Shown here in pieces: positions 2,954 to 33,063 of a stretch of DNA of 39,015 nucleotides; positions within the stretch are counted from its first letter, which is position 1, and each line of letters opens with the position of its first letter. The stretch is from Elusimicrobiota bacterium (GTDB lineage: Bacteria > Elusimicrobiota > UBA8919): assembly GCA_040757695.1 (NCBI GenBank), contig JBFLWK010000016.1:1-39015 (forward strand). Direction: 5' to 3'. A model generated the notes under the pieces. That model was not told the origin of the DNA. It saw only the letters and a program-made list of their open reading frames with translations, and made no database searches. The position numbers and the translations under genes were made by a program.

Positions 2954-3898
2954 TTATATTGGAAAAGAAATTTTTGTCCCAAAATTAAATTTCCTTGGGT
3001 CAACTCTTTTGTCATTAAGCCGATACTGTTTTCGACTCTTTGTCCTTTTTGTAAAACCGGGTTTTTGAGTATTTTGAAAAATTATTTCGTAATTCTGACT
3101 TTTGTCAAACAATTCTTTTTGTTTTATTCCAAGTTTCTCTTTAATGACATCCAAAAAAGCAGGATTAACTTCATAACTAATTGAATTTCTATCAAGCAAA
3201 GCCGCAACTTTTGTTGTCGTTCCACTTCCTAAAAACGGGTCAAGAACAGTGTCTCCAACGAAACTATACATTTTTATCAAACGGCGAGGCAATTCCTCAG
3301 GGAACATTGCGAGATGCCCGTTTTGTTTTTCACCGGCAAAATTCCAATGTCCATAAAAATATTTCACCCATTCCTCATGACTCATTTTTGATTCTTCTTT
3401 TTGCTCCCTTGTTGGAACAGGCGATTTACCCAATTTTTTGAACAATAAAATAAATTCATAATCAATAGAAATCATTCCATTTCTTGGATAAGGATAGGAA
3501 CCCATCACCGTTGCACCACCAGTTGTTTTGCAGGTTGTAACTTTCTGCCAGATAATTGCACCCATATAATCAAAACCGATTTTTTCACAAAAATTCACAA
3601 TCGTTTCTCGTATAGGAATAATTTTATATCTGCCATAAATTACTGAGCGGGCAAATTGGTCACCAATGTTAACACATAACCTGCAACCTGGATGCAAAAC
3701 ACGATAACATTCAGCCCAAACTTTATTGAGTGAATCAACATATTCCTCATAGCTCTGGTGAAAACCAATCTGATTTTTACAACCATAATCCTTTAATTGC
3801 CAGTAGGGTGGTGATGTAACCACTAAATGAACCGATTCATCTTTCAGTTCTCTCATATTTCTAGAATCACCAATAATAATTTTGTGAGATGTTTTCAT
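2954..3898 (-). CDS. DNA methyltransferase, beta class, probably N4-cytosine (R-M system 2)
   Basis: A 314-residue site-specific methylase. The catalytic motif TSPPYW is at residues 28-33 and the AdoMet-binding DPFLGSGTT at 220-228, the beta-class order with the target-recognition region between them. SPPYW is typical of N4-cytosine enzymes. It follows, 7 bp downstream, the gene for an MjaI-like nuclease. MjaI cuts CTAG, so this enzyme probably protects CTAG or a related site. That specificity is inferred from the partner. The full motif set suggests an active enzyme. Confidence 0.85.
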   Translation of the reverse strand: MKTSHKIIIGDSRNMRELKDESVHLVVTSPPYWQLKDYGCKNQIGFHQSYEEYVDSLNKVWAECYRVLHPGCRLCVNIGDQFARSVIYGRYKIIPIRETIVNFCEKIGFDYMGAIIWQKVTTCKTTGGATVMGSYPYPRNGMISIDYEFILLFKKLGKSPVPTREQKEESKMSHEEWVKYFYGHWNFAGEKQNGHLAMFPEELPRRLIKMYSFVGDTVLDPFLGSGTTTKVAALLDRNSISYEVNPAFLDVIKEKLGIKQKELFDKSQNYEIIFQNTQKPGFTKRTKSRKQYRLNDKRVDPRKFNFGTKISFPI

Positions 3899-5674: not shown

Positions 5675-5956
5675 CTATATGACCAGATTTATTCCGTCAA
5701 TTATACCGACAATCGCAGCATCTACTGGAGGTGTATCAGCCAGAGATGTCCCGCCACAGGCAACCGCAGCTTCACGAGCACCAACATAAAAAACAAATTC
5801 AGAAGCGCCTGCACCGACGACATCTACAGCAACGAGAGGTTCACCTTTGGGCTTTTTATCCCATGTCAGCGGCTGAACAAGAAGCAGTTTTTTCCCTTCT
5901 AATGATCCATATTTTTGTGTTGCAACAACCCTGCCTATAATTTTCCCTGCAAACAT
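5675..5956 (-). CDS. BMC pentameric vertex protein, EutN/CcmL family (copy 2)
   Basis: A 93-residue BMC-P protein. It begins MFAGKIIGRVVATQKYGSLE, continues with GKKLLLVQPL and the family hallmark LVAVDVVGAGASEFVF, and ends with DAAIVGIIDGINLV. Such pentamers close the shell vertices. It lies between the lipoprotein gene, with palindromic repeats in the gap, and nucleotidyltransferase module A. No good ribosome site is visible. Three different pentamer genes in one locus could form alternative or mixed vertices. That is inference. Confidence 0.92.
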   Translation of the reverse strand: MFAGKIIGRVVATQKYGSLEGKKLLLVQPLTWDKKPKGEPLVAVDVVGAGASEFVFYVGAREAAVACGGTSLADTPPVDAAIVGIIDGINLVI

Positions 5957-5971
5957 TTTTCGCTTCGCTCT

Positions 5972-6076
5972 CCGAGAATGAATTCTCGGCTACAGTATGG
6001 TTTGAATTTTCATTCACTTCGTTCACCCCCGAATGAATTCGGGGGCTACATCATTGACGGCAGGTTGAAATCTGCC
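5972..6076. repeat. Cluster of short palindromes with a GA loop
   Basis: In the 138-bp gap between eutN copy 2 and the lipoprotein gene lie CCGAGAAT-GA-ATTCTCGG (5972-5989), CCCCCGAAT-GA-ATTCGGGGG (6026-6045) and a weaker GGCAG-GTTGAAAT-CTGCC (6059-6076). The first two are followed by GCTAC. The stem-GA-stem plus GCTA(C/A) design recurs at 34221-34242. They look like REP-type dispersed repeats. They are not followed by T-runs, so they are not clear terminators. Confidence 0.7.
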
Positions 6077-6094
6077 ATTCCACAAATTCTTTTT

Positions 6095-6721
6095 TTACTG
6101 TAATTCCTTCCAAAATGGCTTTAATGATTTTTTTAGCGAACTGACAACCAAGCCGACTGCTGTATTTATATCTAACGCTTCGTAACTTTTTGAATCGCTC
6201 CATACAACCTCGCCAGTTAAACCATCTGTAATTTTTGCCGAAATAGATACGGATGCGGATACTGTAAAAACATTGGCATCTTCAAGCCCGAATGCAGAAC
6301 CCGTCGGAAGAACAGTCGTTCCGCTTATCGGATATGCTTTATCTGATATTACAATTTTACCCTTTTCCTTAAACACCAACAATTTATTTGATGGATTAAA
6401 CTCAATTACATTCCCGGAAATTATTGCATCAACCCCAAGTGATTTTGTATCGCTGATATTCTGAATATCTGTTCTATCAATAACATTCAGTCCTGCGGAC
6501 AAAAACTGTCTTATGAACTCGTTGCTTACTGCATCACCACCATCACCTGAAAATTTTAAGACAGCGATTTTTTTTATACTTGAAAAATCATAACCCTTTT
6601 TAATAACTGTTTTTGTTGTTGCACAACCGAAAAAGGCAGGTAAAAGGTAAAAGGTAAAAGGTAAAAGGTAAAACCACTTCCAATAATTTTTAATTTTTAA
6701 TTTTACATTTTTAATTGTCAC
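6095..6721 (-). CDS. Lipoprotein with CsgG/penicillin-binding-activator-like fold
   Basis: A 208-residue predicted lipoprotein. A hydrophobic signal (WFYLLPFTFYLLPAFFGC) ends in a lipobox Cys near residue 33. The mature part (KKIAVLKFSGDGGDAVSNEF, DRTDIQNI, GVDAIISGNVIEF, TDGLTGEVVWSDSKSY) follows the pattern of CsgG-like or GNA1162-like envelope lipoproteins. The start is a GTG inside a GTGA overlap with the TPR gene. The signal peptide is encoded by a 7-bp tandem repeat. Why an envelope lipoprotein sits in a BMC operon is unclear. Confidence 0.7.
   Translation of the reverse strand: MTIKNVKLKIKNYWKWFYLLPFTFYLLPAFFGCATTKTVIKKGYDFSSIKKIAVLKFSGDGGDAVSNEFIRQFLSAGLNVIDRTDIQNISDTKSLGVDAIISGNVIEFNPSNKLLVFKEKGKIVISDKAYPISGTTVLPTGSAFGLEDANVFTVSASVSISAKITDGLTGEVVWSDSKSYEALDINTAVGLVVSSLKKSLKPFWKELQ
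6639..6673. repeat. Tandem 7-bp repeat (GGTAAAA x5) encoding a signal peptide
   Basis: Five perfect copies of GGTAAAA lie inside the lipoprotein gene. On the coding strand, TTTTACC repeats read F-Y-L-L-P-F-T in every frame, because 7 is not a multiple of 3. Any copy-number change leaves the peptide hydrophobic, but it alters the downstream frame unless it comes in threes. Further AT microrepeats (6686-6715) encode the residues before it. Confidence 0.9.
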
Positions 6722-7212
6722 TTTGCACCCCCTAAAAACTGAATATGTTTTTTTGCTATTTCTTTGAAATCAGAATTTTTTACAAGTTTAGTCCAGTATA
6801 AAATTGCATTTTCTTTTTCATCTTTTTTTTCATAAAGAACAGCGAGTGTATATTGTATTGCTGGAAGACTTTTATCTTCCTGCTTATTCTTTTTGGCTTC
6901 TTTTATTAAGTATTCTTCTGCTGCTTTTAAGTGGGCTTCGGCTTCCCATAAACTGTTTTTTTGCAAAAACATCATTCCGAGTGCGACATCGGGAAGCGGC
7001 GATTTTTCATCCAGCTTTTTTGCTTCAAGAAGTATCTTTACCGCTTCGTCGTATTTTTTCTCTTTAATAAGCTTGTTACCTTCTGCTACAAGTTGGTTCA
7101 CATCCTGTGCATTAAGTAAAGTGTAAAGTGTAAAGTAAAAAGTGTAAAGTAAAAACCATTTCCATGTTCCGCGTCGGTTCTGCGTTTTGTTTCGCGTCTG
7201 TTCTGCGTTCAT
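6718..7212 (-). CDS. Exported TPR-like protein
   Basis: A 164-residue protein with a signal-like hydrophobic stretch (WFLLYTFYFTLYTLLNAQ, about residues 18-35). Helical repeats follow, of tetratricopeptide type: NKLIKEKKYDEAVKILLEAK, LGMMFLQKNSLWEAEAHLKA and YTLAVLYEKKDEKENAILYW. Such proteins usually act as scaffolds in envelope complexes. The start overlaps the rpiB copy 1 stop and the end overlaps the lipoprotein start, so TPR protein and lipoprotein are probably partners. The whole N-terminus is encoded by microrepeats. Confidence 0.7.
   Translation of the reverse strand: MNAEQTRNKTQNRRGTWKWFLLYTFYFTLYTLLNAQDVNQLVAEGNKLIKEKKYDEAVKILLEAKKLDEKSPLPDVALGMMFLQKNSLWEAEAHLKAAEEYLIKEAKKNKQEDKSLPAIQYTLAVLYEKKDEKENAILYWTKLVKNSDFKEIAKKHIQFLGGAK
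7114..7211. repeat. Two microrepeat tracts covering the N-terminus of the TPR gene
   Basis: 7114-7157 is built from variants of GTAAA and GTGTAAA and encodes the hydrophobic signal. 7169-7211 is built from GCGTC(T/G)GTTCTGCGTT variants and encodes the residues before it. Both are degenerate direct repeats like those in the intergenic gaps, but here they lie in frame. Confidence 0.8.
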
Positions 7213-7646
7213 TTCCCCTCCTCAATTTTTTTTATTTTTTTAACTCTTCTTAAATGTCGACCTTTTTCAAATCTTGCTGAAAGAAATTTTTTTACTGCTT
7301 TTTTAATGTGAATAAGCGAAAAATCTTCTGAAAAACAGATAATGTTTGCATCGTTATGCCTGACTGAAAATTCTGCCGCTTTGGGTGAATAGCCAACGAC
7401 AGCCCTCGTGCCTTTAACCTTATTTGCGGCAATACATATACCATTGCCTGAACCACATACTAAAATCCCTCTGTCAAATCTTTTTGATACAACCGCTTTT
7501 GCGACGCTGTATGCAAAATCCGGATAATCGCAACTATTTTCAGAAAAAGTCCCGAAATCTTTTATCATATAATTTTTTGATAAATATTTTATCAGTTCTG
7601 TTTTATACCGGAATCCGCGATGGTCACTTCCGATTGCTATTTTCAT
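7209..7646 (-). CDS. Sugar-phosphate isomerase, RpiB/LacB-like subunit with catalytic Cys
   Basis: A 145-residue RpiB/LacAB-family protein. These enzymes interconvert aldose and ketose phosphates (ribose 5-phosphate, allose 6-phosphate or galactose 6-phosphate). IAIGSDHRGF at the N-terminus, Cys64 in LVCGSGNGICIAANK, HNDAN near residue 97 and GRH near the end are the family's phosphate-binding and catalytic residues. A second homologue without the Cys lies 37 bp upstream. RpiB homologues are typical of sugar-phosphate-utilising BMC loci. The exact substrate cannot be read from sequence. Its stop overlaps the TPR gene start. Confidence 0.88.
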   Translation of the reverse strand: MKIAIGSDHRGFRYKTELIKYLSKNYMIKDFGTFSENSCDYPDFAYSVAKAVVSKRFDRGILVCGSGNGICIAANKVKGTRAVVGYSPKAAEFSVRHNDANIICFSEDFSLIHIKKAVKKFLSARFEKGRHLRRVKKIKKIEEGK

Positions 7647-7683
7647 ATTTTTTCGTTCTCACATTCTCGCTAACGTGGAAACG

Positions 7684-8133
7684 TTATTTTAAATATTTTT
7701 TTTCTATTTCAGTAACTTTATCCAGCCGACGATAGTGTCTGCCACCTGCAAACTTTGTTTCAAGCCAGACTTTAATTATCTCCTGTGCTTCTAAATCGCC
7801 TATCATTCTTGCCCCGAGACACAAAATATTTGCATCGTCATGTTCAGACGCGAATTTTCCGGTAAGTTCGTTATATGCACATACAGCTCGGATACCCGGC
7901 ACTTTGTTCGCTGCAATAGGCATTGCCCCGCCGGTGCCATCTATCAAAATACCTTTTTCGTACTCCATTTTAGCGAGCGATTCTGCAACCAACAGTGCAA
8001 TATCAGGCCAATCAACCGCCTCTTCAGAATAGCAACCAAAATCAAAAACTGTATGACCTAACCCTTGCAAAAATTTTTTTAGTTTTTCTTTAAGTTGGAA
8101 ACCTGAATGATCAGAACCAATTACAATATTCAT
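7684..8133 (-). CDS. Sugar-phosphate isomerase, RpiB/LacA-like subunit lacking the catalytic Cys
   Basis: A 149-residue RpiB/LacAB-family protein (IVIGSDHSGF, DWPDIALLVA, HDDANILCLGARMIGD, GGRHYRR). The position of the usual catalytic Cys holds Asp65 (GILIDGTGGAMPIAANK). Asp at this position is also found in LacA of galactose-6-phosphate isomerase, where the Cys is supplied by LacB. It could therefore form a mixed enzyme with the downstream Cys-bearing homologue, or act on another substrate. A Mycobacterium-type Glu replacement is not evident either. Confidence 0.87.
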   Translation of the reverse strand: MNIVIGSDHSGFQLKEKLKKFLQGLGHTVFDFGCYSEEAVDWPDIALLVAESLAKMEYEKGILIDGTGGAMPIAANKVPGIRAVCAYNELTGKFASEHDDANILCLGARMIGDLEAQEIIKVWLETKFAGGRHYRRLDKVTEIEKKYLK

Positions 8134-8163
8134 TTTTTTGCCAATTTTGATCTTAGCTTTTTG

Positions 8164-8352
8164 TTATTTTTCCCAAAATCCTAACTCGTTATAGTTATAC
8201 TCTTTTTTTGTTCCGTCACTAAACTCTACAATTAAACAGCCATCCGCACTTTCGTGTATAACTTTTGCCGATTTAATCGTTTTTCCTTCCCAGTCTGTGA
8301 TTTCTTTTTCCTTCTCTTTTGTGTTGTAACCCACATCAAATTTTTCAGTCAT
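8164..8352 (-). CDS. Small conserved-looking protein of unknown function
   Basis: A 62-residue protein with a good ribosome site (AGGAGAG, 6 bp before the ATG). It is acidic and basic by turns, with a compact beta-rich look (KSAKVIHESADGCLIVEFSD, then GTKKEYNYNELGFWEK) that resembles a small SH3-like barrel. There is no signal peptide, transmembrane segment or encapsulation-like helix at the ends. It lies between the RpiB pair and the BMC-T gene. A BMC-associated role is suggested only by position. Confidence 0.6.
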   Translation of the reverse strand: MTEKFDVGYNTKEKEKEITDWEGKTIKSAKVIHESADGCLIVEFSDGTKKEYNYNELGFWEK

Positions 8353-8417
8353 AAAACTCTCCTGTGTTTAATTCTTTCAACTCAGAATTTTTCTACTGAG
8401 TTTTTCATTCCATCTTT

Positions 8418-8539
8418 GTTGAAAAAGTCCTCTGTTTGTCATTCTGAGCGGAGCGAAGAATCTCGCAGTTCGCCGGAATATGAAACCCTTCCCCCGAAAC
8501 AAGTTCGGGGTCAGGGTAGTTTTTGCTGACTTTTTCAGC
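8418..8539. repeat. MITE-like element with terminal inverted repeats
   Basis: A 122-bp element with near-perfect ends: GTTGAAAAAGTC (8418-8429) and GACTTTTTCAGC (8528-8539), one mismatch in 12. Inside are the widespread module CATTCTGAGCGGAGCGAAGA and a CCCCGAA-acaag-TTCGGGG hairpin. A 13-bp inverted repeat (8517-8529 with 8535-8547) overlaps the right end. The 276-bp gap between BMC-T and the 62-residue gene otherwise holds no gene that I see. Confidence 0.6.
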
Positions 8540-8628
8540 AAAAACTATTTATTAAGTTCGTATGCAACTTTATTTGCTAATTATTCTGCTTTATCGTCTA
8601 ATTGGTCAACAAACTTTGATAGATTTTT

Positions 8629-9183
8629 TCATAACAATGTTCTTTTAAGCTCTTCATGGGCTTTTGGGATAACGACCCGCTGAATTATTACGCCTTCATC
8701 TTTTATAATCTCGCAACCAGCATTTACCGCAGAGTGGACGGCGCCAACATCGTCGGAGCATAGCGTTACAAACGATTTCCCACCTAAACCTTTTGCAAGA
8801 CGGATCTCTATAAGTGAAATTTTTGCAGCTTTGGCAGCGGCATCAGCGGCACGGATACAGGAAGCAACTGTAAATGTTTCAATAATCCCAACTGCCTCAA
8901 AATTTGCTATTTCATTTGTGCCTAAAATCGCAGGAACAACTTGAGTATTGACATTCGGAATTATGAATTTATCAATAAGTGTCTCACCAGCAATCTCAAC
9001 GCCTTTTTCAACTGATGATTCAACATCAGCAAGAAGTCCCGTTATCAGAACCAGATATTTTCCAGGACAAATCGGATATGCATCTACAAGTTCAATCCCT
9101 GAAACTTTGCACATCGCATCAGATGCCTCTATCCCTTTGGCGATTGAATTTGTTTCAATAAAGCCTATCGTCGGTTGAATCAT
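8629..9183 (-). CDS. pduT: BMC trimeric shell protein, PduT-like, iron-sulfur type
   Basis: A 184-residue protein with two tandem BMC domains (about residues 1-92 and 93-184), forming pseudohexameric trimers in the shell facets. It matches PduT closely: the first domain has SIAKGIEASDAM and YPICPGKY, the second AVGIIETFTVASCIRAADAA. Cys39, in the ICPGK pore motif, corresponds to the PduT Cys that holds a [4Fe-4S] cluster in the central pore. With PduS nearby, electrons could cross the shell. An AGGA site overlapping the toxin stop precedes the ATG. Confidence 0.93.
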   Translation of the reverse strand: MIQPTIGFIETNSIAKGIEASDAMCKVSGIELVDAYPICPGKYLVLITGLLADVESSVEKGVEIAGETLIDKFIIPNVNTQVVPAILGTNEIANFEAVGIIETFTVASCIRAADAAAKAAKISLIEIRLAKGLGGKSFVTLCSDDVGAVHSAVNAGCEIIKDEGVIIQRVVIPKAHEELKRTLL

Positions 9184-9192
9184 AAAAATTCC

Positions 9193-9489
9193 TCACAACT
9201 TTTCGTACGCCTTTGAACGATGTTCTATTCTGAAAATCCATATTTTCTGCTTTTCATGAGAAATCCAGTAAAGATTTCGCCAGTCGCCACTATGAATTCT
9301 ACAAAGTCCTTTCAAGTCATTCGGCATTGAAGTCAACTGATGATGAGCGATACTTTCTGCGTTTTCAGCTAACTAATTTATTTTCTTATCAATTCTTTCA
9401 CGAACTGAAAAGTCAAGTTTGGATAAGTCATCAATTGCTTCTGGATAAGTATCTATTTGATACTTAATTTTTGCTTCACCTGTTCCCAT
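9193..9489 (-). pseudogene. RelE/ParE-type toxin interrupted by an in-frame TAG
   Basis: The frame from ATG 9489 to TGA 9193-9195 encodes a RelE/ParE-like toxin of about 98 residues: YPEAIDDLSKLDFSVRERI, HHQLTSMPNDLKGLCRIHSG and DWRNLYWISHEKQKIWIFRI, ending EHRSKAYEKL. A TAG at 9373-9375 breaks it after residue 38. Intact members are mRNA interferases or gyrase poisons. The antitoxin gene upstream overlaps its start and looks intact. Either the toxin is dead, or the TAG is read through or is a sequencing error. Confidence 0.75.
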
Positions 9490-9686
9490 GGAATAAATTT
9501 TCCAGCTTCCATATCTGCTTTTGCTTTTCTCATTCTTTTGATAAACTCTGGATCATGTGCCAGAAGCCAGTCCTCAATTTCTTCTTTTGTGTCTGCGGTT
9601 TCAAATACCTCAACAGGAATTGTAATAGTATTAGTTTTGTAATTTACACATTGTTCTTTAACAAACTGTGCTTTTTTCTTTTTCAT
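9453..9686 (-). CDS. Antitoxin of the RelE/ParE-like pair
   Basis: A 77-residue acidic protein, PVEVFETADTKEEIEDWLLA followed by RMRKAKADMEAGKFIPWEQV. The C-terminal part is typical of antitoxins whose tail wraps the RelE-type toxin. It overlaps the toxin frame by 37 bp and starts 2 bp after pduS. It separates pduS from the BMC-T gene, although those two are neighbours in classic pdu operons. The cassette is therefore an insertion into an ancestral pair. Confidence 0.75.
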   Translation of the reverse strand: MKKKKAQFVKEQCVNYKTNTITIPVEVFETADTKEEIEDWLLAHDPEFIKRMRKAKADMEAGKFIPWEQVKQKLSIK

Positions 9687-9688
9687 AA

Positions 9689-10990
9689 CTACCTCTCAAT
9701 TTTTATGAAATTGCTCACTCCTATAATTTTGCCATCAATTGAAGCGTGAATATTTGCCGATAATTTACCGTCGGGAATCTCTGCTATCAACTGACCTTTT
9801 TTTACTTTATCACCAACTTTCACAACCGGTTCTGCAGGTGCTCCTGTATGCTGTGAGAGTGGAATTTTTATTTCTGAAATTTCTATTGCTCTATCTGTAA
9901 AAGGTGCAGGCTTATCATATTGAATTAAATCAAGCCGACCCAAGATTCTGTGTAGAGGTACTCTACGATATTCACGCATTGGATGGACTTCAGACGGCAT
10001 TTTTTTATATGGATTCTTTTGCCCGTCTTTTATAAGTTTCTGTTTTATTGTCTGATTTATTTTTCTGGGTAAGAGTTTGCCTGGGCAAACCCAATCGCAA
10101 AGCCCACACTCAGAGCACATAAATGCTTGTGTGATATTTTCTGTTAAGCCACAAGCGGTTGAACGCTGAATTTTGTGACATTCTAGTGTATGTCCTAAAA
10201 GATACCTCGGACAAATCTCGGTGCAATCCTGACATTGTTCACAAGCGCTTTTTGATTGTTTTATAGCGTGCCTGTTGGATTTCTGGTAAACAACCTCGCT
10301 ATCCGACGGGAGAATGAGTATGCCTGATGTTTTTTTTGTAATTGCTGTGTCTTCAGAAATAATTGTTCCCATCATAGGCCCGCCGTCAAGAACAGTATAA
10401 TCGCTCGTAGTTGTCCCACCTGCAAAATTAATTACTTCCGCAACTGATGTTCCGATAGGAAAAAATGCAGTAACCGGATTTTTTACTGCACCGCAGACGG
10501 TCAAAGGCCTGTCAGTTACTGGTTGGCCGTCAACAGCATTTGCAATATTCATCAGAGTAACAACATTATCTACTACTATGCCGACATTCAGTGGGATTCC
10601 GCTTTCCGGTAGAATTTTTCCTGTAACCTCATAAACAAGAACAAACTCATCACCTGCGGGATAGAAATTATTTAAATAAAAAAGAGAAATTGGGAAATTG
10701 GGAAACTGGGAAATTGTTTTATTCAACGCATTTATTGCTGGTTGGTATTTTTCTTTCAGTGCGATAATGCCGTTTTTTGCGCCAGTTGACTCCATTGCCA
10801 ACTGCAATCCACGGACAACTCGTTCTGCATAAATGTCCATCATCTGTTGGTCTACTCTTAAAAGCGGTTCGCATTCCGCACCATTTGCAATAACGGTCTC
10901 AACTTTAGCAGAAAGTTTTATATGCGTTGGAAAACCCGCCCCACCCGCACCGACAACGCCAGCATTTTTAACAAGTTCAACTATATTCAT
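9689..10990 (-). CDS. pduS: PduS-like RnfC-domain flavo-iron-sulfur oxidoreductase
   Basis: A 433-residue PduS/RnfC-type protein that oxidises NADH by FMN and iron-sulfur clusters. The N-terminal Gly-rich loop is GVVGAGGAGFPTHIK (residues 11-25). A soluble-ligand-binding beta-grasp region lies around 170-190. Two [4Fe-4S] motifs follow, Cys250/253/256/260 and Cys292/295/298/302. A biotinyl-lipoyl-like C-terminal domain (VKVGDKVKKGQLIAEIPDG) ends it. In pdu BMCs PduS binds PduT. Here it could recycle NAD+ made by the aldehyde dehydrogenase. Residues 93-104 are encoded by a microrepeat. The ATG overlaps the nucleotidyltransferase stop (ATGA). Confidence 0.9.
   Translation of the reverse strand: MNIVELVKNAGVVGAGGAGFPTHIKLSAKVETVIANGAECEPLLRVDQQMMDIYAERVVRGLQLAMESTGAKNGIIALKEKYQPAINALNKTISQFPNFPISLFYLNNFYPAGDEFVLVYEVTGKILPESGIPLNVGIVVDNVVTLMNIANAVDGQPVTDRPLTVCGAVKNPVTAFFPIGTSVAEVINFAGGTTTSDYTVLDGGPMMGTIISEDTAITKKTSGILILPSDSEVVYQKSNRHAIKQSKSACEQCQDCTEICPRYLLGHTLECHKIQRSTACGLTENITQAFMCSECGLCDWVCPGKLLPRKINQTIKQKLIKDGQKNPYKKMPSEVHPMREYRRVPLHRILGRLDLIQYDKPAPFTDRAIEISEIKIPLSQHTGAPAEPVVKVGDKVKKGQLIAEIPDGKLSANIHASIDGKIIGVSNFIKIER
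10681..10716. repeat. In-frame microrepeat inside pduS
   Basis: Three to four copies of AAATTGGGA variants occur in the coding sequence, giving S-Q-F-P-N-F-P-I-S-L-F just before the conserved NNFYPAGDE. The reading frame is kept. Confidence 0.8.
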
Positions 10991-11439
10991 TTTTTCTTTT
11001 TTCTCTTTAAAATTGCTGTCAGATATTTTAAATCTTCTTTGTCTTTAACTCGTCCCGCTGCTTTCTTCATTTTTATCATATCTTTAAGCGCTGGAAAATA
11101 TACATAAGTATCACCTATTTTGGCACGGATTTTGTTTTTCCAGACCTCTTTAAAATTTATACCGGTAACGAATGGATGGATATCAGTCGGCAATACATAT
11201 TGGCGAATAAGTGTTTTTTTAGTAAGAAAATTTTCAAGTGTTGTGTCCTCAATAATATCATAACCAAATTCTTTTAGTGCTTTAATTGCTTTTTTGGCAT
11301 TTTCTTCAATTGGCTCAATAAAAATATCAATGTCAAATGTTGCACGAGCATATCCATATGCAGGAAATGCCTCGGCTCCTATAACAAGGAATTTAACATT
11401 ATGTTCTTTGAGTAATTTCAGGAGTTGTTCTATGTTCAT
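10987..11439 (-). CDS. Nucleotidyltransferase-like protein (module B)
   Basis: A 150-residue nucleotidyltransferase-fold protein. The core is VKFLVIGAEAFPAYGYARAT then FDIDIFIEP, with a D-x-D pair but GAE in place of the GGQ of module A. It is shorter than module A and ends in a Lys-rich tail. It overlaps the upstream 65-residue gene by 41 bp and the downstream pduS start by 4 bp, so the cassette sits in the BMC operon without breaking it. Antitoxin or toxin function is only suggested by the arrangement. Confidence 0.65.
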   Translation of the reverse strand: MNIEQLLKLLKEHNVKFLVIGAEAFPAYGYARATFDIDIFIEPIEENAKKAIKALKEFGYDIIEDTTLENFLTKKTLIRQYVLPTDIHPFVTGINFKEVWKNKIRAKIGDTYVYFPALKDMIKMKKAAGRVKDKEDLKYLTAILKRKKKK

Positions 11440-11596
11440 ATTTTTTAATTCTCTTCATTATTAGTAGAGATCTATCATGCATCATTTTGAATCTTTGACC
11501 CGTTGTAAGAGACATTAAATAATCTAACTCAAACTCAATTTCTTTTTTTTCGGCATTTTTGTCGTTTTTGCCAATCATTAAAATTTTTGTTTTCAT
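11399..11596 (-). CDS. Small partner protein of nucleotidyltransferase module B
   Basis: A 65-residue protein with a charged N-terminus and a central segment, LDYLMSLTTGQRFKMMHDRS. That segment echoes the WLKLTPAERLLETGKLWELY of the module A partner. Its start overlaps the aldehyde dehydrogenase stop (ATGA) and its end overlaps the nucleotidyltransferase start. No domain is recognised. The shared layout suggests a two-gene cassette in which the small protein is made first. Confidence 0.55.
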   Translation of the reverse strand: MKTKILMIGKNDKNAEKKEIEFELDYLMSLTTGQRFKMMHDRSLLIMKRIKKYEHRTTPEITQRT

Positions 11597-13020
11597 GCTA
11601 TTCTGAAATAATCAACTAAAACACAGCGGAGTGGGCGAGTGAAATTTTTTGCTTTAACTAATCCATCGCCTGTTGGGGTTGCGATTGAAAGCGCCGCATA
11701 ACCCTCACCCATTCCTAAACCCATATACGAAGGGCCGTTTTTCACAAAGATAGAACCCTGACATAGACGCGCCATTTTCGTTAAATTAGCAACATTCAGA
11801 GAATGCATAATAAATGTGTGATGATTATCGCCTTCAACCTCAATTCCGAATTCTATCGCGGAGTCAACATCCTTCATTTTTACAACAGGCATAACTGGCA
11901 TAAGTTGTTCAGTCCATACAAACGGATGGTTTTTTTCTACCGTACCCCAAAGCAGCCGTATATCGTCAGAAATATTCAATCCAAGCGCTTTAGCAATTAC
12001 TGATGCATTCCTTCCAACATAATCACGATTCATCACACCTTCTTTATATTTTCCGCCGGGCTCTTTGATAACAATTTTTGCAAGTTCATCCATCTGTTTT
12101 GCAGAAAGTTCATAGGTGCGATTATCTTTTCTTAAGGATGATAAAAACTGGTCAAAGACTTTTTCAACAACAAGTGTTTCTTTTTCGGCCGTGCATAAAA
12201 TCCCGTTATCAAAACTTGCACCTGATACCATATCTTGCGCGGCTTTTTCTATTATAGCAGTTTCATCAACTATACAGGGTGGATTACCTGGACCTGCAGC
12301 AATTGTTTTTTTACCAACGGACATCGCAATTTTTACAATTGCAGGTCCACCTGTAACAAGGTTCAGTTTTACTTTTGGATGTTTTAATAATGCTTGTGTG
12401 AACTCAACCGATGACGGATTTACTGTTGAAACAAGCGACAATGGCCCGCCGGCAGAAATAATTGCATCGTTCAAAATTTTGATTATCTGGTGCGAACATT
12501 TGTTCGCAGCTGGATGTGGCGCAAAAATCACAGAATTACCAGCTGCGATAATTGAAATAGCGTTATTTATAATAGTTGATACAGGATTTGTAGACGGTGT
12601 AACTGCTGCGATTATCCCGTAAGGCGCATTTTCTACAAGTGTAAGTCCGCGGTCGCCGGTAAAAGCAGTTGGTTGTAAATCTTCAACACCGGGAGTTTTC
12701 TCGGCAGCAAGAATATTTTTTTGAACCTTATCTTCCCACCTGCCCATTTTTGTTTCTTCAACAATCATTTTAGCGAGGTATTCTGCATTTTGGATTGCAG
12801 ATTCTCGTATTGCTTGAATAATTTTTTCTCGTTTTACAAGCCCTAAATCCCACAAAATCTTCTGGGCAGTTTCTGCAGCGTTCAAACATTCCTCAAAATT
12901 ATCAAAAACAGGACCGACAGAATCCGTTGTCGGAGTGATATTGATTTTTTCTTCGGTTTCTGATAGCCGTTTTATCACTTCTGCAACAATTTTAGAAATA
13001 TCATTTTCGTTTAGTTCCAT
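11593..13020 (-). CDS. pduP: CoA-acylating aldehyde dehydrogenase, PduP/EutE type
   Basis: A 475-residue aldehyde dehydrogenase that would turn an aldehyde, NAD+ and CoA into acyl-CoA and NADH inside the compartment. Residues 1-20 (MELNENDISKIVAEVIKRLS) form an amphipathic helix like the encapsulation peptides of BMC cargo, followed by a Pro/Thr linker. The substrate loop NAPYGIIAAVTPSTNP, GPGNPPC and catalytic Cys276 (DNGILCTAEK) match PduP and EutE. It lies between eutN copy 3 and nucleotidyltransferase module B. Whether the substrate is acetaldehyde or propanal is not decidable here. Confidence 0.93.
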   Translation of the reverse strand: MELNENDISKIVAEVIKRLSETEEKINITPTTDSVGPVFDNFEECLNAAETAQKILWDLGLVKREKIIQAIRESAIQNAEYLAKMIVEETKMGRWEDKVQKNILAAEKTPGVEDLQPTAFTGDRGLTLVENAPYGIIAAVTPSTNPVSTIINNAISIIAAGNSVIFAPHPAANKCSHQIIKILNDAIISAGGPLSLVSTVNPSSVEFTQALLKHPKVKLNLVTGGPAIVKIAMSVGKKTIAAGPGNPPCIVDETAIIEKAAQDMVSGASFDNGILCTAEKETLVVEKVFDQFLSSLRKDNRTYELSAKQMDELAKIVIKEPGGKYKEGVMNRDYVGRNASVIAKALGLNISDDIRLLWGTVEKNHPFVWTEQLMPVMPVVKMKDVDSAIEFGIEVEGDNHHTFIMHSLNVANLTKMARLCQGSIFVKNGPSYMGLGMGEGYAALSIATPTGDGLVKAKNFTRPLRCVLVDYFRIA

Positions 13021-13030
13021 AATAGAACCA

Positions 13031-13097
13031 GTGATTATGTGATTAAGTAATTAAGTGATTAAGTAAAACCTAACCACGTAACCACTTAGCCACTTAT
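13031..13097. repeat. Intergenic microrepeats before the aldehyde dehydrogenase gene
   Basis: Copies of GTGATTAAGTAATTAAGT and of AACCACGTAACCACTTAGCC fill the gap between eutN copy 3 and the aldehyde dehydrogenase gene and reach the eutN stop. No promoter is evident in it. Confidence 0.75.
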
Positions 13098-13405
13098 CTA
13101 CTGCCTTTTGTGTCTGCACTTTTCTTAAAAACAACCTTGCCGTCTTTCTCTATGTAGTCAATAATTGCCATTATCGTTGTATCAACAGGATTGCCTTCGG
13201 TGCGTTTGGTCTGACGAGCGGAAGAACCTTGAACTATTAAAACAAGCTCGCCTTCTCCAGCACCGACGGCATCCACAGCAACAAGTTGGTTTCCCTTGGG
13301 TTCTCCTTCAAGTGAAACCGGCTGGACCATTAAAAGTTTGGTGCCGACAAGTTTATCATCTTTTCGTGTGCAGACAACATTGCCTATAACACGGGCAAAT
13401 TGCAT
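13094..13405 (-). CDS. BMC pentameric vertex protein, EutN/CcmL family (copy 3)
   Basis: A BMC-P protein of 103 residues from the ATG at 13405. A GTG two codons earlier is possible, but GGAGTG is better placed for the ATG. It reads MQFARVIGNVVCTRKDDKLV, then LLMVQPVSLEGEPKGNQLVA, AVDAVGAGEGELVLI and TTIMAIIDYIE. It is the copy closest to PduN or EutN and lies directly downstream of the BMC-H gene. Vertex capping is the family role. The C-terminus carries a short charged tail absent from the other copies. Confidence 0.92.
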   Translation of the reverse strand: MQFARVIGNVVCTRKDDKLVGTKLLMVQPVSLEGEPKGNQLVAVDAVGAGEGELVLIVQGSSARQTKRTEGNPVDTTIMAIIDYIEKDGKVVFKKSADTKGSR

Positions 13406-13425
13406 AGTCACTCCACTCCTTATAT

Positions 13426-13522
13426 CACGAATATCTCCCGAATGTTAACCGAATATAAACGAATAAATTTAGACGGTTATTCGGTGTTTCTATTCGGTAT
13501 TTTTATTTGGTTGCTATTCGTG
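13426..13522. repeat. Microrepeats and inverted repeat 3' of the BMC-H gene
   Basis: Direct copies of CGAATGTTAACCGAATATAA and of TATTCGGT variants lie between BMC-H and eutN copy 3, bounded by CACGAATA (13426-13433) and TATTCGTG (13515-13522). The transcript could fold on itself here. The same CGAATGTTAACCGAAT unit lies on the other side of the BMC-H gene. Confidence 0.75.
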
Positions 13523-13524
13523 TA

Positions 13525-13815
13525 TTATTTCTTCTTGCTTTCTAATAAAGAGATTGGCATTGTGCCTTCCAAATCCTGATGTGGCTGCGGAATCACATGA
13601 ACGGCAACCAGTTCGCCGACTTTTTGTGCTGCTGCAGCACCTGCTTCACAAGATGATTTACAGGCTGCGACTTCTCCACGAAACAGAACCGTTACGAGTC
13701 CGCTTCCAATTTTTTCCCAGCCAACCAATTTCACATTCGCTGCTTTCACAGCAGCATCCGCGGATTCAATCAGAGCGATTAAACCGCGCGTCTCAATCAT
13801 TCCCAATGCTTCCAT
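13525..13815 (-). CDS. BMC hexameric shell protein, PduA/PduJ type
   Basis: A 96-residue single-domain BMC protein, the main facet tile of the shell. It reads [20 protein letters not shown], then [20 protein letters not shown] and [13 protein letters not shown]. The KIGSGLV pore loop is that of PduA and PduJ. It is the only single-domain BMC-H gene in the window, so it must form most of the facets unless others lie elsewhere. A strong GGAGGT site lies 4 bp before the ATG. Similar microrepeats flank it on both sides. Confidence 0.95.
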
Positions 13816-13828
13816 CCATACCTCCTTA

Positions 13829-13891
13829 AAACCCGAATGTAAACCAAATGTTAACCGAATTAAACCGAATTATTCGGTGCAGTCATTCGTG
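13829..13891. repeat. Microrepeats 5' of the BMC-H gene
   Basis: Variants of CGAATGTAAACCAAATGTTA and AACCGAATTATTCGGT lie between the response-regulator gene and BMC-H. The same unit occurs at 13438-13470. The last codons of the response-regulator gene fall inside the tract. Confidence 0.75.
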
Positions 13892-14833
13892 TTCTTCAAC
13901 CCTTCTTTCAAAAACATATCTATTACCACCTAAAGATTTGGCATGTTTTTTAAGTTCTGCAGATATTATAGAAAACTCTGCTTTATGTGTAATTTTTATT
14001 TTGTCTGTAGAAATGATAGCAATACTGATACTCATAAGCGGAAACTTTTCCAAATTCCCTACTCGGTTTTTTACTTCTATATTTCTGTTTTTCGCATCTT
14101 CAGGACTATAATACTTCTCTACTGATTTATTAAATTCATTCAAGATATAATTCGCAATTTTTTCAGCTGTCTGGCATTCTGTAAAAATAACAAAATCATC
14201 ACCACCAATATGTCCGACAATATCTTCGCTGTTTTCACAATTTCTACATGCATTTACACAGATAAATCCTACATTTTTGATTATCTCATCGCCATTTAAG
14301 AAACCGTATTTATCGTTATAAGATTTGAAATTATCAATATCCAAGTAAAGTGCGGCAAATGGTTTTTCAGCATTCATTCTGGCGTTGAGTTCATATTCAA
14401 TAGACTGGTTACCTGGTAATTTCGTTAACGGGTTAGCATCTAAATAACCTGCATGTCTTTTAAGCAGCCCTTTCACTCTTGCTACTAATTCGTAAGGATC
14501 CACAGGCTTATAGATATAGTCATCGCATCCGTATTCCATACCTTTTATTCTATCTTCTACTTTTTTCCTTGTTCCTGTTAAAAAGATTAACGGCAGATGT
14601 CTTAAAAAAGAGTCATTTCTTAAAGTTTGTAATACATCATATCCTGTGAGATTGGGCATATCAATATCTGAAATTACGATATCTGGTTTATGCTGGTATA
14701 TTTTTTCCAAAAGTTCTTTGCCGTCGGATGCTTTAAAAACCACAAAGCCATGTTTCTCTAAAGCAAAACTAAGAAATTCCAGAATATCCGGTTCGTCATC
14801 TGCTACTACAGTTTTTATTTCTTTTAGGTTCAT
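13883..14833 (-). CDS. Response regulator with diguanylate cyclase domain (REC-GGDEF)
   Basis: A 316-residue protein. An N-terminal receiver domain (residues 5-120) has the acidic pair ADDEPD, phospho-acceptor Asp56 (VISDIDMP), LTGTR and Lys109 (YKPVD). A GGDEF domain follows, with NPLTKLPGN, LDIDNFKSYND and the active-site variant GGDDF at 210-214. The inhibitory RxxD site is not kept (NSED at that position). It would make c-di-GMP when phosphorylated. It overlaps the pduL stop by 4 bp (ATGA) and precedes the BMC-H gene, so it belongs to the BMC operon. No histidine kinase gene is nearby. Confidence 0.85.
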   Translation of the reverse strand: MNLKEIKTVVADDEPDILEFLSFALEKHGFVVFKASDGKELLEKIYQHKPDIVISDIDMPNLTGYDVLQTLRNDSFLRHLPLIFLTGTRKKVEDRIKGMEYGCDDYIYKPVDPYELVARVKGLLKRHAGYLDANPLTKLPGNQSIEYELNARMNAEKPFAALYLDIDNFKSYNDKYGFLNGDEIIKNVGFICVNACRNCENSEDIVGHIGGDDFVIFTECQTAEKIANYILNEFNKSVEKYYSPEDAKNRNIEVKNRVGNLEKFPLMSISIAIISTDKIKITHKAEFSIISAELKKHAKSLGGNRYVFERRVEEHE

Positions 14834-15453
14834 AAAATTATTACTCTATCACCGTTTTTTATACCAGCGGCATTTGCTTCGTCAGTATCTATATGGAATT
14901 CTAACGCCATGTTTTCGCGAACACGTGCGACAACATTATCAAAAACAAGCCCTCGTTCGCTTTCAACTTTTACGCTTATATTTTCGCCATCTTTTACCTG
15001 AAAGAACTCGGCATCCTTCGGTGTAAAATGAACATGCCGTTTGGCAACGATACAACCTTCTTTCAGTTCAATTAGCCCATTTGGACTAATTACTGTTATC
15101 GGTGCAGAATTTTTTATATCACCTGATACTCGCAGCGGTGCATTTACACCGAGAATAAATGTATCCGTTTTAGAAATCTCTATCTGTGTAAATTTTCTTA
15201 CAGGACCAAGTACACGCACATTTTTTATCTCGTTTTTCGGTCCTTTAATAGAAACCGATTCTTTTGATGCGAACTCGCCTGGCTGCATAAGGTCTCTATC
15301 TTTCGTAAGTTTGTAACCAGTTCCAAAAAGTTTTTCCAAATCTTCCTGACAGAGATGTATATGTCTGTTAGAAACATTTGCAATCACAGGTTTCTGCGCC
15401 CTTTTTTCTCTCATTTTGATTTTTTCCGTAATTCTTTCCGTAAGTTCCGACAT
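14830..15453 (-). CDS. pduL: Phosphate acyltransferase PduL
   Basis: A 207-residue PduL, which converts acyl-CoA and phosphate to acyl-phosphate and frees CoA within the compartment. The family's metal-binding histidines are present: SNRHIHL (His31, His33), KRHVHFTP (His140, His142) and HIDTDEANA (His187). The first 20 or so residues (MSELTERITEKIKMREKRAQ) form an amphipathic helix suited to encapsulation. Its GGAGTGA ribosome site lies inside the last codons of the restriction gene upstream. It pairs functionally with the PduP-type dehydrogenase. Confidence 0.94.
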   Translation of the reverse strand: MSELTERITEKIKMREKRAQKPVIANVSNRHIHLCQEDLEKLFGTGYKLTKDRDLMQPGEFASKESVSIKGPKNEIKNVRVLGPVRKFTQIEISKTDTFILGVNAPLRVSGDIKNSAPITVISPNGLIELKEGCIVAKRHVHFTPKDAEFFQVKDGENISVKVESERGLVFDNVVARVRENMALEFHIDTDEANAAGIKNGDRVIIL

Positions 15454-15456
15454 AAA

Positions 15457-16173
15457 TCACTCCATTCTAAAACCAATAATTTTTTCTTGTGTAATTCTTC
15501 TATCTAAAAATAAAAACTTGATTCTGTATGGTTTATCATTCAATAACTTAAATTTTGGACTATTTTTATACTCGTAGCGGAATGCCTCACCTTTATTTTT
15601 ACTCGCACCAATAATTTTATCATCATAAATTATTTTTAACTCACCATTAGGAACAGCAATAAGTAAAATTGCCAATATTACAATATCTCCGTTTTTGTTA
15701 TACTCATAAACGATATTTATGACATAAGTTAAACAAATTTTTTCAGTTGGCTTGCCTTTATTATAAAAAGTGGGTAAATGAACTTCATAGTGCTTCCCAT
15801 AATAACTTGTTTGATTAGCACCAAGTGGAACTTTTCCTTTGTAGTCAGACGGATTATCAAATTTTGTTGTTTTAATATCTATATGAACAAAAGCATTGTG
15901 GGTTTCAAAAAACATATCTGCTCCAATAGGAGCAGAACTCGGTTTACCAAATTGACTGAATAGCCAATAATAAATTCTTTCTGCTCCACGACAAAAATCA
16001 GAATTTTGTTTTTTCTTATCAATTCTGTCAAAAAATTTTTTCCAGTCATTTTTAATTTTATCCTTTGAATTAAGACCATCTATCATTTTTTGTAAATCCT
16101 GACTTAAATCAAAATCAATCTTCTTGAAATAATCGTATTCTAACATTTCAATCTTTTTTAGTTTTGTATTCAT
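15457..16173 (-). CDS. Putative type II restriction endonuclease (R-M system 3)
   Basis: A 238-residue protein with a PD-(D/E)XK-like core: GADMFFE (Asp86) then FVHIDIKTTKF (Asp99-Ile-Lys101). It overlaps the methylase gene upstream by 4 bp, the usual layout of a type II R-M pair. No specific family is recognised, so the site is unknown. It ends 3 bp before pduL, and its last codons double as the pduL ribosome site. The nuclease call depends on the motif and the partner. Confidence 0.65.
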   Translation of the reverse strand: MNTKLKKIEMLEYDYFKKIDFDLSQDLQKMIDGLNSKDKIKNDWKKFFDRIDKKKQNSDFCRGAERIYYWLFSQFGKPSSAPIGADMFFETHNAFVHIDIKTTKFDNPSDYKGKVPLGANQTSYYGKHYEVHLPTFYNKGKPTEKICLTYVINIVYEYNKNGDIVILAILLIAVPNGELKIIYDDKIIGASKNKGEAFRYEYKNSPKFKLLNDKPYRIKFLFLDRRITQEKIIGFRME

Positions 16174-17387
16174 ATAATTTTTATTTCTCCACAGCGTTTT
16201 TTGATAATTTTTACAAATTTTGATTGTAATTCTATCAAAATTGATTTCCTATTTAATTCCAAAGCAACTTTTCCTGTTGTACCAGAGCCAGCAAACGGGT
16301 CTAAAACAATTCCATCTGAAGGACAACATGATTTTATTGCCATTTTCGGTATTTCTTCAGGAAAAACTGAGAAATGTTCGTAACCAGTTTTTGCTGTATT
16401 TATTATCCATAAATCCCCGGGGTTTTTTCCTTTAGGATGATTTTGAACAACTTGTAAGACCAAATGTGTTTCTGTCATTTCTTTATCATATCTGTCGTCA
16501 AAATTTAATATCTTTTTTAATTTTAACCAATCATTAGGGGTTGGAAGCGAACCACCAACATCTTTTCTGAACCAATGTCCTGCTGTATGTTTATACCCAA
16601 GAATTTTGTCAATTTCTTTCACACTAATTTCTTTTTTTTCTCGCCAATATCTTAAATAATCGCATATCTCACTCAATGATAATTCATGTTTCCGTTTAAG
16701 TGTATATCTGCCCTCTGAAATTGACATTCTAGCGCCGGGAGATGCACCAATATTTTTTTCATTACCTCGGAATTTGCCATTATACTTTTTGCCTTTTGGC
16801 ATTTGTATTTCTTTTTGTGTCTTATGCGGAATTCGTATAGAATCTATATCAAAACAGACATTTTTTTCCCAATCGTTTTTTGTGAAAAAGAAAACCGGTT
16901 CATATGTATTTGTAAATCTTGTTCTTACCGGTGATGGCATGTGGTCAGGTTTATACCATATAATTTGGTTTCTTAAAAGCCAACCCATATTTTGCATCCC
17001 GATTGCAATACGGGATGGAATCATCTGTAAATTTTTATCAACATATGTATCACCTATATTCAAAAAATATGCCCCATCATCTTTTAACACTCTTAAAATT
17101 TCATCACCAACCCTTATCATTTTTCCAACATATTCCTGTGGTGATTTTTCTCTGCCAATCTGATTTTCTATTTCATAATCCCTTAAATTCCAATATGGCG
17201 GCGAGGTCACAACCACTGAAATGCTTTTATCAGGTATCCGTCTTAATTGTTCAAAAACATCTCCCAAAAGCAAATGCGGTATTGTATTATTTGGTAATGA
17301 GATAGTATTATTCTCTATATTTTTATAGGTTTCTTTTTTTCTTTTAATTAATACATTAAAAGAATAATTTTGTGGAACTACCTGCAT
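16170..17387 (-). CDS. DNA methyltransferase, beta class, probably N4-cytosine (R-M system 3)
   Basis: A 405-residue methylase. TSPPYWNLRDY starts at residue 61 and the AdoMet motif DPFAGSGTTG lies near 363, the beta-class order. A large region between them includes a helix-turn-helix-like stretch (LSLSEICDYLRYWREKKEIS, then KEIDKILGYKHTAGHWFRK) that is probably the target-recognition domain. SPPYW favours N4-cytosine. It starts 2 bp after tpiA and overlaps the nuclease gene. The pair is wedged exactly between tpiA and pduL. Confidence 0.85.
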   Translation of the reverse strand: MQVVPQNYSFNVLIKRKKETYKNIENNTISLPNNTIPHLLLGDVFEQLRRIPDKSISVVVTSPPYWNLRDYEIENQIGREKSPQEYVGKMIRVGDEILRVLKDDGAYFLNIGDTYVDKNLQMIPSRIAIGMQNMGWLLRNQIIWYKPDHMPSPVRTRFTNTYEPVFFFTKNDWEKNVCFDIDSIRIPHKTQKEIQMPKGKKYNGKFRGNEKNIGASPGARMSISEGRYTLKRKHELSLSEICDYLRYWREKKEISVKEIDKILGYKHTAGHWFRKDVGGSLPTPNDWLKLKKILNFDDRYDKEMTETHLVLQVVQNHPKGKNPGDLWIINTAKTGYEHFSVFPEEIPKMAIKSCCPSDGIVLDPFAGSGTTGKVALELNRKSILIELQSKFVKIIKKRCGEIKII

Positions 17388-29290: not shown

Positions 29291-29333
29291 TCACACTTAC
29301 CTGCTTACCTGCCCACCTGCTTACCCGCTACAG

Positions 29334-29516
29334 TTATGCCAAATCTTCGGCACCTATTGTTTTCTTTTTTCCGTCTGCTTTTACTTTCTCAATAGATGCT
29401 TTGACCATACTGTCAACTTTTGCAGACAACGCCTCAATATAGTCCTTACCAGTTCGCAAGCCCGCTTCCTTCGCCATCTTCTTTACCTTTGAAACAACAA
29501 CCAGTATCTCAGCCAC
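29334..29516 (-). CDS. Bacterial histone-fold protein
   Basis: A 60-residue protein. Helix 1 (SKVKKMAKEAGL), a long helix 2 (KDYIEALSAKVDSMVKASIE then KVKADG) and KKKTIGAEDLA match the histone fold, the last part recalling the RKTIKAEDI of archaeal histones. It resembles the short histone of Bdellovibrio (Bd0055), a DNA-coating protein, and like it has a shortened third helix. The start is GTG, preceded by the best ribosome site in the window (AAGGAGGTGA), suggesting high expression. It stands apart from its neighbours functionally. Confidence 0.8.
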   Translation of the reverse strand: MAEILVVVSKVKKMAKEAGLRTGKDYIEALSAKVDSMVKASIEKVKADGKKKTIGAEDLA

Positions 29517-29538
29517 TTTTTCTCACCTCCTTAACGAC

Positions 29539-29617
29539 AATTAAAAATTAAAAATTAAAAGTTAAAAATGTATTTTATTTACCATAATTTTTAATTTTAC
29601 ATTTTACATTTTTAATT
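29539..29617. repeat. TTAAAAA microrepeats upstream of the histone gene
   Basis: AATTAAAAATTAAAAATTAA variants (29539-29570) face TTTTTAATTTTACATTTTAC variants (29586-29617) in inverted order. They fill the leader of the histone gene and may fold. The same unit occurs at 6686-6715. Confidence 0.75.
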
Positions 29618-31207: not shown

Positions 31208-31813
31208 TTATTCTTTCTCTCGGAAATAAAAACTTCCTCTATTAAATTTATTACCTTCACCGTCATTATATAAATATGTCTTATTAAGTTTACCAAACAT
31301 TGCAACAGTTACTACCCTATCTAATATGGAAGAATTATCCGCAAAATCACAGCCGTAACCAAAACAAACAAACGGAAAAATAGATTCTTTTAACAAAGCA
31401 GTCCTTAATCCAATTACATTTTTACCTAATCTTTCTACGGCATTTCCTTTTGATTGCCACGGAAGCCCTTCTTTTTGTCGCAACACATTTGTTCCTTGAT
31501 TTTTGACTTCCGCTATTAAAATAGGATACATATTCCCCTTTTTATCTTCTAAAAATAAAATTCCCCCGTCAGGTTGTATATTACTTTTACTAAAAAAATA
31601 ATGAAACTCAACATCTGCGAAGTGCTTTCTTAATTCTTCAACAATATCTTTCAGGAACCATTTTGTTTCATGCCGAAGTTTTACTTGGAATTTCTTGTTT
31701 ATTTCCATAACAACACGGTTTAATGCTTTAATAACACCTGTTTCTTGCTTTTTGGAAGTTACATTTATAATTAGCCCTTGTCGGGTTTTTCGTAATAGAT
31801 ATTTATCAGCCAT
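31208..31813 (-). CDS. EcoRI-like type II restriction endonuclease (R-M system 4)
   Basis: A 201-residue nuclease related to EcoRI. It shares SNIQPDGGILFLEDKKG (Pro81-Asp82), LIAEVKNQGTNVL (Glu102, Lys104) and GNAVERLGKNV then FPFVCFGYGCDF, matching EcoRI's SNIKPDGGI, AEAKHQGKD and GNAIERSHKN. EcoRI cuts GAATTC. The protein is shorter than EcoRI (277) and lacks its C-terminal part. Its methylase gene lies 17 bp upstream. GAATTC occurs in the window, so methylation would be needed if the site is the same. Confidence 0.85.
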   Translation of the reverse strand: MADKYLLRKTRQGLIINVTSKKQETGVIKALNRVVMEINKKFQVKLRHETKWFLKDIVEELRKHFADVEFHYFFSKSNIQPDGGILFLEDKKGNMYPILIAEVKNQGTNVLRQKEGLPWQSKGNAVERLGKNVIGLRTALLKESIFPFVCFGYGCDFADNSSILDRVVTVAMFGKLNKTYLYNDGEGNKFNRGSFYFREKE

Positions 31814-31830
31814 TCTGTTGCCTCACATTT

Positions 31831-33063
31831 CTACTTTTTCTCCAATATCCACAGCAATTCCTGAACTTTTATATTTCTATCGCGAAGGTTTCTGGAACCA
31901 CGATAAGTATTATATTCTTTTTTCTGCAATTCAACCTTCCCATATTTTGTAAGTATTAGCTTTATTTTGTCAGTAGGGATTAAACCTTCGTTGTTATACG
32001 AAAGCAAAATATATTTTGCAGGAGTGTTTTCAATCAAATTGCCAAGTGACTCTTCAGCTGTTTTTCTTTTATTGTATTGAGACCTTTTCCAATTTTTAGC
32101 AATACCACTGATGCCATTTTGTATCTCAATTTCCTCTGATTCATTTGCAATGATATTCAGCATAAAATAGTTTGAACCATATGGATGCTGGTTATATGGC
32201 GGATCATAATAAACCAAATCAAATTGATTTATCAAGGAAGATTTTATTAGTTCATTCACATCTTCTTTGAAAATATTTACTTCACACTCAACCCCACTAA
32301 AAAGTGGCATTTCTAAATTGATTTCCCCTTTTATTCTCGTAAGCGCATTTTCACCCATGCCACCAAACCAGCCATTACCATTTTTTTTATGAAAACCCTT
32401 AAATACTCCAGAAGTATTTGTATGGATAGATGCTTCTACAATCAATGGTGCAAGAAAAAAATGTCTATAGGATTTATCTATTTTTGAATAAATTAGATAT
32501 TTCAAATTATCAATTATTTTAGCATTGCGATTGGTATAAAATACTCTCTCGCATGGCTTGATATCATTATCGTTTTTAGGTGCATAATTCTTTTCAATAA
32601 AACCGGGTATTTTTTGCAAGAACTTAAGTTTATTTTGATTTAACCATTGTATTGTTTCAGATATAAAGTTTAAATCGGTTTCTGATTTGTTTACTAAATA
32701 ACATTTACTTAAAATTTCACAATAATCTTCCATATCGTTTACAAAAAGTTGTGATGCGTGATATTTAAGCAAACGCGAGACCGCACCACTTCCTGAAAAT
32801 CCTTCAAAAATACATAGTTTATCTTTTTTTAACATGCGTTTTATATCAGTAATAGTTTTATTTAAGAACGGTAGTAAACTTCTCTTGTTCCCGATATATG
32901 TTATAAGTTGAGTGGTAAAGTATGGATTTCTGAAATCCATTAGTTCGGGAAACATATCAATAGTAGTAGTGGTACTATAACTGTGATATGACGGTTCCAT
33001 TATTATTGAGTGGTTCTGATAGTTCTTGGTTTTATACTTCGTATTTATTTTTTTTTGATTCAT
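31831..33063 (-). CDS. N6-adenine DNA methyltransferase, D12 class (R-M system 4)
   Basis: A 410-residue adenine methylase of the Dam/FokI (D12) class. It has YIGNKRSLLPFL (IGNKR at 57-61), the AdoMet site FEGFSGSGAVSR (about 86-97) and DPPYNQHPYG (DPPY at 287-290). This is an alpha-type order, distinct from M.EcoRI and the beta-class M.RsrI. The next gene downstream is an EcoRI-like nuclease. A second ATG 21 codons in may be the true start. It follows the aminotransferase by 14 bp. Confidence 0.88.
   Translation of the reverse strand: MNQKKINTKYKTKNYQNHSIIMEPSYHSYSTTTTIDMFPELMDFRNPYFTTQLITYIGNKRSLLPFLNKTITDIKRMLKKDKLCIFEGFSGSGAVSRLLKYHASQLFVNDMEDYCEILSKCYLVNKSETDLNFISETIQWLNQNKLKFLQKIPGFIEKNYAPKNDNDIKPCERVFYTNRNAKIIDNLKYLIYSKIDKSYRHFFLAPLIVEASIHTNTSGVFKGFHKKNGNGWFGGMGENALTRIKGEINLEMPLFSGVECEVNIFKEDVNELIKSSLINQFDLVYYDPPYNQHPYGSNYFMLNIIANESEEIEIQNGISGIAKNWKRSQYNKRKTAEESLGNLIENTPAKYILLSYNNEGLIPTDKIKLILTKYGKVELQKKEYNTYRGSRNLRDRNIKVQELLWILEKK

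Follow-up and report, generated by a model that had tools for sequence, protein, structure and literature searches.

Histones are rare in bacteria and have been tested in few species. The closest described system is HBb (Bd0055) of Bdellovibrio bacteriovorus, a DNA-binding and DNA-bending protein that outnumbers all others in the nucleoid fraction of Bdellovibrio, where HU is also found, in lesser amount (PMC10627809, PMC11317129). N22 of HBb is its top-ranked DNA contact and R57 the second-ranked in simulation, while R51 and D58 form what is called the RD clamp (PMC11317129). Clustering by sequence with HBb/Bd0055 defines the 'bacterial dimer' histones (PMC11390915), and the alpha3 histone architecture is described in that study and in PMC12701072. 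In face-to-face histones, dimers are joined to one another by residues R48 and N52 (PMC11390915). 'Bacterial dimer' histones of the Elusimicrobiota have already been listed (PMC11390915) and are mentioned in two further studies (PMC10627809, PMC11317129).

Here we describe such a gene from an Elusimicrobiota bacterium, in a stretch of 39,015 nucleotides which is called the window below. The first-pass annotation had proposed a short bacterial protein with a histone fold, akin to that of Bdellovibrio, and sequence, profile and predicted fold all support this; its coordinates for the open reading frame are exact, and the strand, which it did not give, is minus (Table 1). The encoded protein, MAEILVVVSKVKKMAKEAGLRTGKDYIEALSAKVDSMVKASIEKVKADGKKKTIGAEDLA (60 codons), has a pI of 9.5. 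Its best match in the PDB, searched with the single sequence (phmmer), is HBb/Bd0055 (8fvx/8cmp, E=1.6e-8), and a profile built from 26 relatives again places HBb first (1.4e-12), followed by 9f2c (4.6e-8) and 9qt0 (1.7e-7), which Foldseek identifies as Thermococcus kodakarensis HTkC and Leptospira perolatii HLp. The protein itself is matched by no model of Pfam or NCBIfam; PF00808 is matched weakly by 6 of the 26 relatives. The AlphaFold2 model of a single chain (50-sequence alignment; pLDDT 83.7, pTM 0.57) is a histone fold and not another fold, with helices at residues 2-17 and 24-48 and a third helix of one turn (three residues, 56-58). This agrees with the shortened alpha2 and the alpha3 of 3-4 residues by which the alpha3 class is recognised, and the best Foldseek matches are alpha3 histones, the HBb entries leading (TM 0.79-0.81, probability 1.0, identity 41-44%).

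Table 1. Features of the histone gene and protein, of the microcompartment locus and of the phage relative (window positions, except for the phage gene)
Feature	Position	Strand	Details
Histone coding sequence, 60 aa	29334..29516	minus	GTG start 29516-29514, stop 29336-29334
Shine-Dalgarno TAAGGAGGTGA, 11 nt	29523..29533	minus	6 nt 5' of GTG
Helix alpha1, residues 2-17	29466..29513	minus	AlphaFold2; invariant S9, K10, K12, K13, K16
Helix alpha2, residues 24-48	29373..29447	minus	AlphaFold2; preceded by loop 1 with R21 invariant, T22/G23 conserved
Loop 2 and one-turn alpha3, residues 49-58, GKKKTIGAED	29343..29372	minus	AlphaFold2, conservation, HBb residues (PMC11317129)
BMC shell proteins	8629-9183, 13525-13815	minus	
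EutN/CcmL vertex protein	13094-13411	minus	
Aldehyde dehydrogenase	11593-13020	minus	
PduL-type phosphotransacylase	14830-15453	minus	
Apparent second vertex protein	5675-5956	minus	read by eye
Phage histone gene	L136:10001-10177		contig IMGVR_UViG_3300032401_001693; about 3.5 kb after terminase gene

We put at about 85% the probability that the gene encodes an alpha3 nucleoid-associated histone of the 'bacterial dimer' class, which would act as a dimer, bind and bend DNA independently of sequence, and share the nucleoid with HU. Two chains would pair via the histone fold, and the dimer would hold DNA by its backbone, at the minor groove and with no sequence preference, the paired L1-L2 loops (R21/T22 from one chain with K52/T53 from its partner) serving as the grip together with the beginning of alpha1 (S9, K10, K12, K16); the DNA would then be bent much as it is by HBb. 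A search for HU or IHF genes, proposed as a check in the first-pass annotation, found one HU/IHF-family protein encoded in the window's genome, and the family was found in 98 of 100 relatives. We therefore reject a replacement of HU by the histone, and because histone and HU also coexist in Bdellovibrio, the likeliest role is that of a dimeric, DNA-bending packing protein which works beside HU and does not displace it. The suggestion that this is a principal nucleoid protein is plausible by analogy with Bdellovibrio, but it is left unproven since HU is encoded in the same genome.

Expression gives mixed indications. The sequence AAGGAGGTGA lies six bases 5' of the GTG start as claimed, and the description of a very strong ribosome site holds well: the contiguous anti-Shine-Dalgarno match of the histone gene, 11 nt, is unequalled in a sample of 337 ORFs from this genome, where the runner-up has 9 nt (these and the codon statistics are drawn from about 0.4 Mb of the genome). 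Among 68 relatives the match is mostly of 5-7 nt; thus the ribosome site is conserved, but the extreme strength seen in the window is not. Codon adaptation to ribosomal genes is 0.53, as against 0.69 for typical 60-codon stretches, a result given little weight since four ribosomal genes (726 codons) are the reference and the histone has 60 codons. This low value points away from high expression and was rejected as support for it; the Shine-Dalgarno sequence argues for strong translation, which codon usage does not. Scans for promoters and terminators around the gene gave no signal above chance. Short tandem repeats lie on both sides of it (29296-29329, 29539-29569 and 29585-29617), the downstream unit being 8 bp long (CTTACCTG) and the upstream units 7 bp and AT-rich; the GC-rich downstream repeat was sought in all related loci retrieved and is present at the window locus only. 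The GC content at third codon positions is 0.42 in the histone gene and 0.29 (sd 0.05) in the sampled ORFs, which is odd for a vertically inherited gene.

Elsewhere in the phylum, the histone gene keeps a particular company. Among 68 named Elusimicrobia loci (L033-L100, with the histone at about 3001-3180 in most and nuoA to nuoD read where the contig allows), nuo genes follow it closely on the same strand in 49, and several of the remainder are cut by contig ends. The commonest order is histone, a methyltransferase gene of MidA type (PF02636) or UbiE type (PF01209), then nuoA, nuoB, nuoC and nuoD. In 32 loci the MidA-type gene is the histone's immediate neighbour, overlapping it slightly in two, and the UbiE-type gene occurs in 16. 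We found no published report of this linkage in the literature searched, which covers few subscription papers. Such an arrangement, together with the Rex-type redox repressor gene that precedes the histone in 6 loci, could mean that this histone-fold protein serves a specialised role in regulation, linked for instance to respiration, in place of global packing. We consider this improbable: in the window's family the histone is instead flanked by an ABC-2 permease/ATPase pair on one side and ExbB/ExbD genes on the other, nuoA is not detectable in the window's genome, the linkage is missing from several Endomicrobia loci too, and a gene order may be inherited even where no functional link exists. 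The linkage has been lost in the window's family, and an obligate tie between histone and complex I is rejected, as several other histone carriers also have no detectable nuoA.

Returning to the packing protein that we favour, it might alternatively be a face-to-face histone that forms tetramers and wraps DNA, like HLp or HTkC. These two are its next-best matches by profile and by fold, and its invariant loop-1 arginine aligns with an arginine of HTkC. HBb, however, is nearest in sequence, and the positions of R48 and N52 (PMC11390915) are occupied by K44 and D48 in the window histone, in an alignment read by eye. An RxxxN pattern like that of face-to-face histones, with an RKT motif, is found rather in a second, more divergent histone which some relatives possess (L031, L032); a search for a second histone in the window's genome found none, leaving one in total. 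A wrapping mode is thus very unlikely for this protein. The 'bacterial dimer' class has further marks besides clustering, which we judged from the best match, by sequence and by profile, being HBb. The alpha1 lysines are present as K10, K12, K13 and K16 in all of 69 Elusimicrobiota sequences, and R48 and N52, whose absence is another mark of the class, are replaced as described above. The RKTxxxD motif is retained in part, as K51-K52-T53 and D58, but its arginine is lysine here and in 66 of the 69. The gene evidently belongs to the Elusimicrobiota 'bacterial dimer' group already described.

Selection on the gene is readily seen within the family, where relatives are 81-87% identical to the window histone in protein and 76-83% in DNA. 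Against three of them pS is 0.48-0.81 and pN 0.06-0.08 (pN/pS 0.07-0.17); the gene is under strong purifying selection, and the gap between pS and pN rules out a chance ORF. The idea of a chance or decayed ORF, for which short length, the want of a Pfam match and unusual codon usage might be cited, is already refuted by conservation, given this ratio, the conserved ribosome site and the match found in 98 of the 341 genomes surveyed across the phylum.

Named relatives with at least 61% identity come nearly all from metagenome-assembled genomes of Elusimicrobia or Endomicrobia. Among the 100 nearest genomes, a tally by family finds the histone in 26 of 40 (the window's own counted) and absent from all 60 that belong to two other families, whose listed genomes are of 0.6-2.2 Mb; these two small-genome families are presumably gut-associated lineages. 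A relative is also encoded outside the bacteria, on the 101.8-kb IMG/VR contig IMGVR_UViG_3300032401_001693, where a histone 63% identical to that of the window has a comparable ending, KKTLGSED. This contig is a tailed phage, as seen from its genes for terminase, portal, major head protein and head maturation protease and from its 72 ORFs of at least 150 codons, of which 70 share one direction. The phage copy probably derives from an Elusimicrobiota host; a search of INPHARED found no relative of it.

A wider scenario would have the Elusimicrobiota histones form a distinct sub-class which contacts DNA unlike HBb, through the glutamate at the R57 position, the lysine clamp and the invariant loop-1 arginine. 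Its gene would have kept its place beside the complex I genes from an early stage of the phylum, would have been lost in small-genome families, and would have been taken up by a phage. Taken as a whole this is rather unlikely in our estimation. If true, it would mean that the dosage of a chromatin protein may follow respiratory state. The nuo linkage and the phage copy offer leads on regulation and spread that can be tested.

The window holds other loci, all on the minus strand. A bacterial microcompartment locus occupies 5675-15453 (Table 1). At 31208-33063 is a restriction-modification pair, in which an EcoRI-family restriction enzyme adjoins a D12-class adenine methyltransferase. Three further N6/N4 DNA methyltransferase genes lie at 977-2242, 2954-3898 and 16170-17387, and the uncharacterised ORFs beside them may be restriction enzymes.

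Compared with described systems, the window histone is an ordinary member of its class; what this analysis adds is the residue signature, the nuo linkage and the phage copy. Nine residues are invariant in all 69 Elusimicrobiota sequences (S9, K10, K12, K13, K16, R21, K52, T53 and D58), while position 57 is glutamate in 68 and position 51 lysine in 66. Of the invariant residues, S9, K10, K12, K16, K52 and T53 align with DNA contacts of HBb, and R21 aligns with HBb N22. Loop 2 and alpha3 thus retain the KT contact motif and D58, with K51 in place of the RD-clamp arginine and E57 in place of HBb R57. Because of these two replacements, DNA affinity or geometry may differ from those of HBb, and the invariant R21 might compensate for the changed contacts. 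A version so strongly conserved across a phylum, with altered DNA-contact positions, can be set beside HBb as a clean natural experiment on the way in which bacterial histones grip DNA.

The likeness to HBb/Bd0055 (8fvx, 8cmp, 9ezz, 9f0e) extends over length (60 as against 64 residues), the MAE.LVV.SKVKK start, the alpha1 lysines, the loop-2 KT motif, D58 and the short alpha3. The differences from HBb are R51 to Lys, R57 to Glu, N22 to Arg and D49 to Gly, a stretch before alpha2 that is shorter by one residue, one before the KT motif that is longer by one, and the missing C-terminal VIDHL extension. The Elusimicrobiota histones of PMC11390915, PMC10627809 and PMC11317129 share phylum and class with the window gene, but where PMC11317129 reports the DNA-contact residues to be conserved in Elusimicrobiota, R57 is not conserved in our 69 sequences. 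The face-to-face histones HLp (9qt0) and HTkC (9f2c) have the same alpha3 histone fold, HTkC sharing the loop-1 arginine too, but are less similar and differ from the window histone at the dimer-dimer residues. Finally, the HU/IHF family (PF00216) resembles it in its proposed architectural role, but has an unrelated fold and is encoded by a separate gene in the same genome.
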